From: an uncultured Bacilli bacterium
GTDB lineage: Bacteria; Bacillota_I; Bacilli_A; RF39; UBA660
Reading direction: 5' to 3'
Assembly (NCBI GenBank): GCA_944363715.1
Contig: CALVUX010000011.1
Location: 1-60,466, forward strand
DNA: 60,466 nt
Below the pieces are notes generated by a model, which saw nothing but the letters and a program-made list of their open reading frames with translations, did not search any database and was not told the origin of the DNA. The translations under genes were made by a program, and so were the position numbers. How positions within the stretch are numbered: the stretch's first letter is position 1; each line of letters opens with the position of its first letter. This document shows positions 59-5,933 of the stretch, in pieces.

Positions 59-670
59 TTAGTTGCTATAACCTATAGGTAGTCCTGTATCTTTCTTATA
101 GAAATTATTCATACCTAACTTACTAATAATATTATTAATATAATCATGATTGATAGTATTTAAGATATCTTTAATTAATAATAAATCTTCATTACTTAAG
201 TATTTACTTAATTTATTAAGTAATACTTTATGATTAATATTATAAAAGTACTTACTAAAATCAAATTTAAGAATATAAAAAGTATTAGATTTATTTTTAA
301 TCTTAACAAGATACTTATCTAATAAATATCTTGCATAAGAAGTACCTCTACCTACTCTAGTTGCACAGTTACTATCTATTAAGTATTTATCTAAAGGTAA
401 TAGAACTTTCTTACAGATGATATGATTAACTATCTTATCTTCTAGGGCACTACTCATAATAAGTCTTTTCTTTTTCTCTTTTATTATAAAGATATGATAA
501 TTACTATAAGTATAGTTATTATTATTAATTTTATCTACTAAGATATTACAATTACTATAATAATTCTTTTCAAAAAGATATAATTTCTTCTTATTTCTAA
601 TAGATTTTCTTATCTTTAAATAAGCATCTTCTATATCACTTAACTCTACTTTCACTTTTAATCCATCCAT
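59..670 (-). pseudogene. Truncated DGR-type reverse transcriptase
   Basis: This encodes the N-terminal 203 residues of an RNA-directed DNA polymerase of the DGR / group II intron-like class. Visible motifs are KKRLIMSSALEDKIVNH (RT1-2), NCATRVGRGTSYA, and KFDFSKYFYNINH around residues 135-147, where Asp137 is the first catalytic aspartate. The motif 4 region TGLPIG is at residues 195-200. The family continues with N-x-x-S-Q and then a YxDD active site, but here the frame reads YSN and stops. None of the three frames of bases 1-58 resumes an RT-like sequence. DGR enzymes are usually well over 300 residues. The first ATG overlaps the avd gene by 35 nt and has no clear Shine-Dalgarno, so the start is uncertain and may depend on translational coupling. 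It is probably inactivated by an insertion, deletion or rearrangement at about position 60-70. Confidence 0.8.
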
Positions 671-1771: not shown

Positions 1772-3706
1772 TTAACTTCCTAACTGTATTTCAAAAGGTG
1801 AATTCAACGTTCCATCACCATTTATAATTTGCACGTTAGATTTTAGATTTATAGATGGCCGCACGCCATTCGATTTGCTCGAAGGCGAAGTGTAGTTAGC
1901 GCTACCATAGTAGTAGACATACAGAACGTACGACGAAGAATATGGTGTTAAAGTCCAATATGTTTTATTGTTACCATATCTATCAAATTGCCCGGACATT
2001 AATTCTCCAAATCTCAATAATCCTACTTTAGCTTCTGCTATATTTGAGGTTATTGCAGTTCCGCTTGCATCTGTATATTTTGCATTCTTATATGAGTAGG
2101 AACTACCACTTCCTACAGTTCCTAGATACCAAGTTGTATTATCTTCTATCATTGAACTATAACTGCTATCTACGTAACTTGTTAAATATTCTCCGTTTAG
2201 GAATGTACCTATTGTATTTGTACTTGAAAATGTTGCATTACTTCCAAAGTTCATTGTTATAAACTCCCCAGAACTTTTTAGTGGTTCGGCACTTACTATC
2301 TTTGTTCCTGTTCCATTTTCGTGGCTTACTATCCTGTATAGATTATTTTCATCCGTACCAAATTTTATATATTCTCCACTGTATCTACTTGACAACAAAG
2401 CTCCTGATAAATTAGTATCATTATCTCCGTTTAAGCGATAAGGGTTATCTATTGTTCCATCACCATCTACAATACGAACGCTAGATTTTAGATTTATTGA
2501 TGGCCGCACGCCATACGAAAAGCTCGAAGGCGAATCGTTGTAAGCGACACCATTGTAGTAGACATACAGAACGCTGGACGAAGAATATGGTGTTAAAGTC
2601 CACCAAATAAGTCCATTATTTAAATAGCCATTACTATAGGTTGTTCCAGTATAACTTGTTACATACTCATAATAGTTTAATAATCCTACAGCATCAGTTA
2701 CCATTGTTGTCTCAGCAGGTTTACTTGAAGATGTTGTTAATGTTGCATTCCACTTAGCATCTGTTACAATGAAATTCTCATAATCTCTTAAGTTACCTAA
2801 GAAACCATCGACGCTAGTATCATTTAACCAATCTTCCATATAACTTCCTTCAAAGTCTGTACTTCCACTTGAATAAGTAATTGAACTTATATTCCATTGT
2901 GTTACTAATTTAGTTGTCTTAGCTTTTTTATTAACTGATACCGCTCTCCATAACTTTCCACTATACCAGATATAGTTATTTGGGTCAGTTCCTGTTATAA
3001 ATGTATCTACTCCATCACCATCATATGTACTTCCATTTTCTCCTAAGTTTTCTAATACTACTTCACTTACTGGATCACCTTGTGTATTAACCCCATTAAC
3101 CACTATCTTACCATGATAATGTTTATTTAAAACATCATTTCCTACTCCTTCTCTTATCCATACATATAAAGTATAAGTTACACTTCCTCCTGCTTCAAGA
3201 GAACCTGTCGCTATTTTATAATTACTTTCTGCTATACTAGATAAATTTGCAGGAGATGCTGGGTCTAATTTATATCTTATATAATCTTTATTCAATTGAT
3301 TACTGGAGCAGTTATCTTCATCTATCATATTTTGATCATCTTGTATAAATACTTCATAATCTGCTGTTAGAGTTCCTGTATTTGTTATTGTAAATACATA
3401 TGGTTCTAACTCTACTCCTTCTTCATCACTCATAGGGTACTTGCCTCTTAAATCAATTGTATTACTACTATCTGCACCAAAATCTATATTTAGAGTACCT
3501 ACTTTAATAACATTATAATCAGCTGACTTTGATACTGATGTAAAAACAGCATAAGCACTCCCTAGAGATATTATAGTTACTCCTAGTATTGAAAACAATG
3601 TTACTAATAATTGTCTTTTTGCCATTTTAGTAAGTGCTACTTCTTTGAAGTTATATTCTTCTATCTTGTCTTTTGTTATTTTTTTTCTATTATTAAATCT
3701 CTTCAT
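1772..3706 (-). CDS. DGR target: surface protein with two variable C-type-lectin-like (DUF6273) domains
   Basis: This is a 644-residue exported protein. The ATG at 3706 is chosen because AGGGTG (3716-3721) lies 9 nt upstream; the frame stays open 264 nt further upstream, but that part runs into the IS element. Residues 1-26 are basic and about 27-48 are hydrophobic, resembling the SipW-type signal of TasA/camelysin proteins (SAYAVFTSVS, then VGTLNIDFG). A TasA-like beta domain follows to about 215. Two DUF6273 / formylglycine-enzyme-like domains come next, each with WTLTPYSSS ... GVRPSINL. Variable residues lie at about 373-402 (VR2) and 588-617 (VR1). The two domains are clearly duplicated, each also ending in a D/N-G-D-G-T element. 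The changing residues (Tyr, Ser, Asn, Asp, Phe, Lys) sit where DGR targets display ligand contacts. The ligand is unknown; surface display is inferred. Confidence 0.9.
   Translation of the reverse strand: MKRFNNRKKITKDKIEEYNFKEVALTKMAKRQLLVTLFSILGVTIISLGSAYAVFTSVSKSADYNVIKVGTLNIDFGADSSNTIDLRGKYPMSDEEGVELEPYVFTITNTGTLTADYEVFIQDDQNMIDEDNCSSNQLNKDYIRYKLDPASPANLSSIAESNYKIATGSLEAGGSVTYTLYVWIREGVGNDVLNKHYHGKIVVNGVNTQGDPVSEVVLENLGENGSTYDGDGVDTFITGTDPNNYIWYSGKLWRAVSVNKKAKTTKLVTQWNISSITYSSGSTDFEGSYMEDWLNDTSVDGFLGNLRDYENFIVTDAKWNATLTTSSSKPAETTMVTDAVGLLNYYEYVTSYTGTTYSNGYLNNGLIWWTLTPYSSSSVLYVYYNGVAYNDSPSSFSYGVRPSINLKSSVRIVDGDGTIDNPYRLNGDNDTNLSGALLSSRYSGEYIKFGTDENNLYRIVSHENGTGTKIVSAEPLKSSGEFITMNFGSNATFSSTNTIGTFLNGEYLTSYVDSSYSSMIEDNTTWYLGTVGSGSSYSYKNAKYTDASGTAITSNIAEAKVGLLRFGELMSGQFDRYGNNKTYWTLTPYSSSYVLYVYYYGSANYTSPSSKSNGVRPSINLKSNVQIINGDGTLNSPFEIQLGS
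1858..1945 (-). repeat. DGR variable repeat 1 (VR1, C-terminal domain)
   Basis: It encodes about residues 588-617 of the target protein. It matches the TR without gaps. Ten substitutions are at TR adenines (mostly A to T, giving Tyr codons from Asn codons), and one is a T-to-A change in an AAT codon. The 3' end GGCGTGCGGC is unchanged. Confidence 0.93.
2503..2590 (-). repeat. DGR variable repeat 2 (VR2, internal domain)
   Basis: It encodes about residues 373-402 of the same target protein. Thirteen substitutions relative to the TR are all at adenines, for example AAC to GTC and AAT to TTT. It differs from VR1 at many of the same codons, so the two repeats were diversified independently. It shares the invariant GGCGTGCGGC end. 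Confidence 0.93.
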
Positions 3707-3715
3707 TATAATCAA

Positions 3716-3778: not shown

Positions 3779-5387
3779 CAGCAAAAAAGAGTAAATTTCT
3801 TCGCAAAGAAAATCTGATATAATTATTACTACAGAATAAGAAAGGATCGTAGTAATGAAAAAAAGAAGTAAAAAGGAAGAAAAAGAATTACAAGAAGAAA
3901 TACAAAAATATGAAAATGAAGCAAGAAGTGTAAGAAGAAAAAAAGAAAGACAATTAAAGAAGGAATACAAAGATAAATCTATTAGAATTAAATCAGGTAA
4001 GCAGTTTAAAAAAACTAAAGAACCTCTTACTAGAAAACAAAGAAGAGAACTTTTAAAAGATAAAAATCTATTAAAGGAAGTTTTAAAGGTAATTAGAAAA
4101 TATTTTCCACAGTTAGAAAACTTATTTAGTAAATTAACTGATAAAAGACATAAAAGTTATATTACTTATAAGATGAGAACTATTATATTTACTAGATTGT
4201 TATCTTTAATATGCGGTATTACTACTATGAAAGGTATTAATCAAAAGTTTAATACTGATGAAGCTATTAAAAATTTATCTTCTATTTGTAATCAAGAACT
4301 TAAAGAAGTTCCTGATTGGCAAACTATTCAAGATGTTATTGAAACTCTTTCTATAGAAGAAATAGAAGATATTAGGAAATATATGGTAAAGGCTTTAATT
4401 AGAAGTAAAATGTTTGATAGATTTAGATATAAAGGTGCTATTCAAGTATTAGTAGATGCTACTGGTCTATCTAGCCATGATTATAACTTAAATAGTAATT
4501 GTATTTCTAAGACTAAAAATGGTGTTACTAAATATTATAAATATGTTTTAGAAGCTAAAATTGTTTTTGGTAATATTGTTATTAGTATTGATTCTGAATG
4601 GATTGAAAATAAGAAATTGAATAATGAAAACGAGAAACAAGACTGTGAAGTTAATGCTTTTAAAAGAATGGCTCCAAGGCTTAAGAAAAACTACCCTAAA
4701 ATGAAATTTATTATTACAGGGGATGCTTTATATGCTACTACTCCTATGATTGATATTTGTAGAGATAATAAGTGGTATTATATCTTTAATCTTAAGAAAG
4801 ATAGACTTAAGAGAGTTTATGAAGAATTTACTGATAATATTAGTTTTGAAAATGAAACTAATAAAGAAAATTATTACTTATCTAAAAATATAAAGTTTAA
4901 CGGAAATGTTTTTGACGTGTTTAAATATATAGAAGTTACTGATAAAAAAACTACTACTTTTCACTATGTAAGTAATTTTAATGTTAAAGATAGTAATATA
5001 GAAGAAATTGTTAATATGGGTAGACGTAGATGGAAGATAGAAAATGAAGGCTTTAACCAACGAAAAAAATGGGACTTTTTGTATTTCCCATATGAGTAGC
5101 AGGCATATTATTGGTTTAAAGGTTCAATATTATTTAATACAGATTGCCCACATTATAAGACAACTATTAGAATATGGTTCTATTATAATAAAAGAGATTC
5201 GTGGAATAACAAAAAAGGAAATAAGCGACAAAATTTCCGACTCACTTACTTCCAACACAATCTCAAATTTTAATTGTTTAGATTTAAATTTTCAATTAAG
5301 ATTTGATGATTGAAGTATAACATATTTCAGGGGAGTTGAAAACTAGTGTCGGAAATTTTTACAGTGTATTTACACTATTTTTGTCGT
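3779..5387 (+). mobile_element. Insertion sequence with DDE transposase (approximate ends)
   Basis: One transposase gene is flanked by imperfectly matching ends. The left end begins near 3779 (CAGCAAAAAAGAGTAAATTT). The reverse complement of the right end near 5387 reads CGACAAAAATAGTGTAAATA. The match is only partial and I could not find a target-site duplication, so the ends are tentative. The element separates the DGR from the rest of the window. Confidence 0.4.
3855..5313 (+). pseudogene. DDE (IS4-superfamily-like) transposase, frameshifted
   Basis: This transposase should cut and join the IS ends. The first frame (3855-5099, 414 aa) has a lysine/glutamate-rich N-terminal helix and then an RNase-H-fold core. 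Candidate catalytic residues are Asp in LVDATGL, Asp in ITGDALYATTPM, and Glu in WKIENEGFN. The frame then reads into RKKWDFLYF and stops. The expected continuation (EKNGTFCISHMSSRH ... YYLIQIAHIIRQLLEYGSI) lies in the other frame from 5044 to 5313. The switch needs a +1 change at or near the A7 run at 5063-5069. This is either an inactivating one-base change or slippage on the A-tract. The -1 geometry typical of programmed IS frameshifting does not fit. Confidence 0.75.
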
Positions 5388-5643: not shown

Positions 5644-5859
5644 TTATTTATTAGTATAACTTCCACTAACTTGATTTAATCCATTTTGTACTAAACGTCT
5701 AGTGATTTCACCACCAACTGAACCGTTAGCACGGCTAGTAGCATCTGGTCCTAAATTTACACCAAATTCATTAGCTATTTCATATTTCATTTTATCAATA
5801 GCTTGTTTAGCACCAGGAACTCTCATCTTCATTGAACCAGTGTTCATTTTGTTGTTCAT
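5644..5859 (-). CDS. Alpha/beta-type small acid-soluble spore protein (SASP)
   Basis: This is a 71-residue DNA-binding protein that coats and protects spore DNA and is degraded by the Gpr protease at germination. The family core is plain: [20 protein letters not shown] followed by [13 protein letters not shown], with the Gpr cleavage region at EIANEFGV. The ATG at 5859 is chosen because AGGAGG lies 8 nt upstream; an in-frame GTG at 5868 overlaps that site. The gene is monocistronic with its own terminator. In known spore formers it is transcribed in the forespore by sigma-G; I did not identify a sigma-G promoter. It indicates an endospore-forming lineage or recent ancestor. Confidence 0.95.
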
Positions 5860-5933
5860 TTGTTTCACCTCCTACACTAGTAGAATGTGAAGTTTTTTTT
5901 ATTTCATACATTTTTTTTACTGGTAATTTTTAC

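Follow-up and report, generated by a model that had tools for sequence, protein, structure and literature searches.

The DNA analysed here (the window; 60,466 nucleotides) is the entire contig C11 of an uncultured Bacilli bacterium whose genome assembly, G000, comprises 1.40 Mb in 39 contigs, and position 1 of the window is a contig end. Close to this end the minus strand carries a diversity-generating retroelement (DGR), its parts in the order target gene with two variable repeats (VRs), template repeat (TR), two small ORFs and, last, a reverse transcriptase (RT) represented by its N-terminal part. The target gene (1772-3707) is an ORF spanning both VR1 (1858-1943) and VR2 (2503-2588), and the TR (1599-1684), delimited by alignment with both VRs, is intact. 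VR1 and the TR differ at 11 positions, of which 10 are TR adenines; the 13 positions that set VR2 apart are TR adenines without exception. Adenines make up 27 of the 86 TR bases and account for 23 of the 24 differences, which is the TR/VR pattern that defines a DGR. The first small ORF (636-1013; 125 aa) occupies the position of the avd accessory gene and the second (973-1311; 112 aa) follows it in the operon. Both recur in conserved form next to the intact RTs of other members of the genus, and neither matches a family in Pfam or NCBIfam, so that the name avd is used here from position only. Directly upstream of the target gene, on the plus strand, lies a DDE transposase gene (3855-5099; PF13808, PF13701) that is apparently frameshifted near its 3' end. 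A further minus-strand ORF of 74 aa (5644-5868) resembles, by eye only, a small acid-soluble spore protein, which would be unexpected in so small a genome.

Two divided reverse transcriptases in one genome

The RT ORF of the window (59-670, minus strand; 203 aa) ends in KKDTGLPIGYSN followed by a stop, and the Pfam model RVT_1 covers it over the first 124 of 205 model positions only. The N-terminal half proper, residues 1-200 with the motifs up to GLPIG, is encoded at 73-670, as judged from the RVT_1 match and from collinearity with an intact 317-aa orthologue (L174). RT coding ends at position 73, and the YSN codons and the stop fall within positions 1-72, one end, a terminal inverted repeat (TIR), of an inserted element on the minus strand, GTTATAGCAACTAAAATGTTATAG..., which is cut by the contig end. 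Contigs C21 and C29 carry the same sequence at an end, as C5 does at each of its ends, and in other metagenome-assembled genomes (MAGs) it borders complete 3.42-kb elements on either side. The insertion point (73-78, minus strand) is a direct repeat, TATAG/G, formed by the Ile-Gly codons of (I/V/L)G^xxxSQ, a signature that marks DGR RTs (PMC3521204); TATAG(G) flanks the insert on both sides, and joining the flanks there gives GLPIGNYTSQ.

A preliminary description of the locus had reported an intact TR with cleanly diversified VRs beside an RT broken inside a motif, where TGLPIG runs into YSN and a stop, and both observations hold; no continuation of the RT exists in any frame of positions 1-58. 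Its proposals to look for a resumed YxDD segment and for another DGR RT in the same genome were also productive. The C-terminal half, which contains SQ and YMDD, was located outside the window at C5:82047-82298 (minus strand). The C11 half corresponds to residues 2-201 and the C5 half to residues 202-317 of L174, and the joined halves are 89% identical to it over 317 aa with no gaps (89-90% for the halves taken singly), so that PIGNYTSQ and YMDD, the two motifs of a DGR RT, are distributed over the two pieces.

An RVT_1 search of G000 returned a single complete RT, on C6, besides two N halves (C11 and C29) and two C halves (C21 and C5), and all four halves lie at contig ends, where they read, away from the RT, into one sequence, GTTATAGCAACTAAAAT.... 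The halves on C29 and C21 belong to a second, divergent DGR RT (RT2), which forms a 363-aa open frame when joined. RT2 and the RT of the window (RT1) are cut at the identical codon, where PIG meets the N of PIGNxTSQ. The RT on C6 is complete (403 aa, with GNQSSQ and YMDD), divergent, located at a separate locus and uninterrupted, and its motif reads LG (TTAGG) instead of IG. Pairing of the halves by TIR type (C11 with C21, C29 with C5) was rejected, as intact orthologues pair C11 with C5 and C29 with C21. The TIRs that flank RT1 are 86% identical to each other rather than identical, and RT1 and RT2 carry these two variants on opposite sides, an arrangement that fits one element whose unequal ends face opposite ways in the two genes, or else sequence exchange between two copies. 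The G000 bin holds element ends only: a RitA search of this genome found no copy, and the content of the element body here is deduced from the TIR and from relatives. Contig C11 probably ends where it does because long repeated TIRs could not be assembled, and the right end of C5 has 77 bases exactly in common with C29, which resembles an assembler k-mer vertex.

Other observations concern the DGR complement of the genome as a whole. A third copy of the repeat is present at the left end of C5 (C5:1-80), where the same TIR breaks a DGR target gene (FDRYGNNTG^YSN) whose other half was not found in the G000 bin. In this one 1.4-Mb genome there are 27 DGR-target domain matches in about 16 genes, and the TR of C11 is matched well only by the VRs on the same contig and, less closely, by one on C5.

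The inserted element

A scan for the repeat-end pattern in one genome per species (84,980 species) found 11 stretches in seven other MAGs. The complete element was present in four contigs of these MAGs (L067, L072, L073 and L076), measuring 3418-3422 bp and assembled across both junctions. In L067 its TIRs match each other without a difference for 86 bp, and in the other three they are nearly identical over about 70-86 bp; between species they differ by about 14%, as if exchange had kept the two ends of each element alike. The L067 element contains three overlapping ORFs of 410, 320 and 341 aa (overlaps of 8 and 17 bp), all of which are tyrosine recombinases (PF00589). For each recombinase, the best match in another element was always the RitA, RitB or RitC in the same position in Cupriavidus pHG1, R. 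albus or B. finegoldii; pHG1 is named in the paper that describes the RitA/B/C families (PMC3414803), and subgroups of these have also been described (PMC8138268). With adjacent, overlapping ritA, ritB and ritC genes, each falling in its own Rit family, a length of about 3.5 kb, TIRs and a palindromic end, the inserted element is, judged by its sequence, a RIT ("recombinase in trio"). Taken together, these results make it very probable that RT1 is interrupted by a 3.42-kb RIT lying between the codons for residues 201 and 202, inside (I/V/L)G^xxxSQ, as a mobile element insertion.

The element shares with the RITs of Cupriavidus and other bacteria (PMC3414803, PMC8138268) a size of about 3.4-3.5 kb, the A-B-C order of three overlapping tyrosine recombinases, and TIRs with an end palindrome. 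It differs from them in its TIRs, which are about 70-86 bp long compared to the reported 28-34 bp, in a constant, one-sided palindromic spacer at RT sites, and in its recurrent insertion in DGRs. This spacer of 30 bp separates the TIR from the RT C half in 6/6 paired cases, and on that side only. It is an imperfect to near-perfect palindrome in which 10-14 of 15 positions pair, and T-A to C-G changes occur on both arms (GTAAA/TTTAC versus GCAAA/TTTGC). In addition, the direct repeat AT(A/T)G(G) is found in the flanks of RT insertions.

Tyrosine-recombinase transposition to preferred sites is also known from Tn554 and SE/GInt, in which the short crossover sequences may differ between flanks (6-bp footprint; PMC10214605). 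However, Tn554 carries TnpA/B/C, SE carries IntA-Tfp-IntB-Srap and GInt carries four gin genes, whereas the element described here is a recombinase trio with no other gene: the complete elements have only three large ORFs, all tyrosine recombinases, and a TnpC or a fourth or accessory protein of the Srap/GinD type is absent. RITs in general are known mostly as sequences; their target specificity is given as untested, and no laboratory has yet reproduced their transposition (PMC10214605). Similarly, the operon of the window resembles known DGRs (PMC3521204) in its RT with (I/V/L)GxxxSQ and YxDD, its intact TR, its adenine-specific VRs and the small ORFs beside the RT, and is unlike them in that the RT gene is physically split at the signature motif by a mobile element. 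No published report of RITs targeting DGRs was found in a search that covered mainly open-access literature.

Insertion sites within and outside DGRs

Thirteen interrupted RTs were found in the eight genomes that carry the element (G000 and the seven MAGs), and 13/13 are interrupted at one codon. RITs with a different TIR occupy the same RT codon in G318, of the same genus, and in G388, of another genus, and every RT insertion found sits in the DGR signature (I/V/L)G^xxxSQ. The site is empty and the RT intact in most other genomes of the genus. Splitting of the RT in at least ten related genomes is thus a recurrent attack on DGRs, or a switch of them, and not random decay. Between L073 and L076 the elements agree at 99.8% identity but lie in opposite orientations, and the RT sequences that flank them are only 77-85% identical, which points to horizontal spread in recent time and to site-specific insertion in either orientation. 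Carrier genomes also hold uninterrupted DGR-like RTs, namely the RT on C6 of G000 (LG for IG) and those on G327:C33 and G324:C9, the last of which is uninterrupted despite a PIGN site and counts against the insertion model. One copy with a different TIR (L242; G388:C51) is flanked by an RT C half and, at its opposite end, by a target-type gene; it may be rearranged, two RITs in two DGR genes having recombined, or its contig may be chimeric or misassembled.

Other RIT lineages within the genus and family occupy other parts of DGRs. RITs lie inside template repeats in G305 (L201; C8, 7499-10871), G281 (L210; C20, 3536-6908) and G299 (L209; C4) and, by their flanks, also in G312, G335 (L248) and G166 (L246). 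In G305 and G281 both pieces of the TR still match a VR, with changes mainly at adenines. Further RITs are located at or just past the 3' end of target-type genes, so called by gene similarity and not by a demonstrated VR, in G298 (L202; C22), G301 (L206; C33), G306 (L205; C66), G208 (L235; C9) and G358 (L250; C58), and one RIT lies upstream of a DGR operon in G305. In a RitC tree, the TR-targeting elements form a clade (98/96 support), as do the main RT-targeting elements (100/100).

RITs were found outside DGRs in G318 (C6 and C33), G350, G279, G006, G332 and G261. The copy on C6 of G318 (L200; 3841-7270) splits a probable ATPase gene, its family assigned by eye only, at a conserved NAIVH^NDW, again with a one-sided palindrome, and RITs may therefore favour conserved coding motifs in general. 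As DGR genes make up about 3% of such a genome, by a very rough estimate, the excess of RITs in DGRs is large, although the copies counted are related and not independent. Profile searches beside control RITs (Cupriavidus, R. albus, B. finegoldii and gut-virome scaffolds) found no DGR RT or target gene, so targeting of DGRs is not general to RITs. In viral contigs, neither close RitA relatives nor the circle-junction and spacer patterns were found; exact matches to a TIR 18-mer in IMG/VR and one-mismatch matches in the family were set aside as chance matches with unrelated flanks.

Mechanism, alternatives and implications

The most likely route would begin with the recombinases joining the element ends into a circle, the junction of which (TIR'-spacer-TIR) would be a long palindrome. 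In DGR RTs, this junction could then recombine, one way round or the other, with the conserved codons for Ile-Gly, AT(A/T)GG, and its palindromic nature would explain why both insertion orientations occur. A search for the circle junction did not find it. Once inserted, the RIT splits the RT before SQ and YxDD, and an N half deprived of both motifs should be inactive while the element is integrated. Recombination between the flanking direct repeats would, on paper, restore the reading frame exactly.

The age of the insertion bears on how it is to be read. None of the interrupted RT halves contains an internal stop, and dN/dS for the RT1 halves against intact orthologues is 0.11-0.26, compared to 0.17-0.30 for intact pairs; this fits an insertion that is recent or reversible, two states that a selection test cannot tell apart in elements so young. 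Of the recent loss suggested in the preliminary description, the recency is thus borne out by the undecayed halves, while decay is replaced by the insertion as the cause. Our main reading is of a mobile element preying on DGRs, with plain parasitism ranked first and a possible regulated switch second.

As a reversible switch, RITs would be dedicated to DGRs, with lineages specialised on the RT motif, the TR and the ends of target genes, and scarless excision would restore the RT in a fraction of cells, turning hypermutation off and on much as prophage excision does in active lysogeny. Joining the flanks in silico restores a gapless RT in 6/6 paired cases, the interrupted halves are undecayed beside an intact TR and VRs, and other RITs of the same group sit in TRs and at target-gene ends. 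However, the same evidence also fits very recent insertion, given copies up to 99.8% identical across hosts; neither an empty-site junction from the same genome nor a circle was seen, and some RITs occupy places other than DGRs. On balance a switch appears unlikely, although it is the foremost alternative to parasitism. Following it in probability, and doubtful, is the proposal, raised as complementation in the preliminary description, that another RT serves the TR of C11 in trans, so that diversification continues despite the insertion. The RT on C6 would be the obvious candidate, being complete and uninterrupted with an LG motif, but it is divergent and belongs to another locus.

That the stop is an artefact of assembly or binning is very improbable. 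The break does coincide with a contig end and a k-mer vertex, but two RTs of G000 are broken at the same codon and complete insertions were assembled in four contigs of independent MAGs. Where the preliminary description left a choice between a rearrangement and an assembly junction near position 60, the rearrangement stands: a mobile element inserted here, and the assembly stopped at its repeated end. Assembly error falls because a complete insertion at that codon is spanned by those four contigs. Removal of a self-splicing group I or group II intron at the RNA level would suit the highly conserved codon and the restored frame, but long DNA TIRs, three tyrosine recombinases and both orientations would be intolerable for a splicing RNA, and this almost negligible reading was dropped, together with that of a simple invertible segment, when complete elements were found.

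These findings have consequences for the study of both kinds of element. Because occupied sites can be compared with their empty counterparts, insertions occur in both orientations, diverged hosts hold near-identical copies and the spacer is defined at 30 bp, RIT integration and excision become directly testable. Moreover, where a MAG contig stops in a truncated DGR RT, the gene may have been divided by an element rather than lost. For DGRs themselves, RITs represent a recurrent natural enemy, or a switch, that acts on the defining motif of their RT, and sister lineages target their template repeats.
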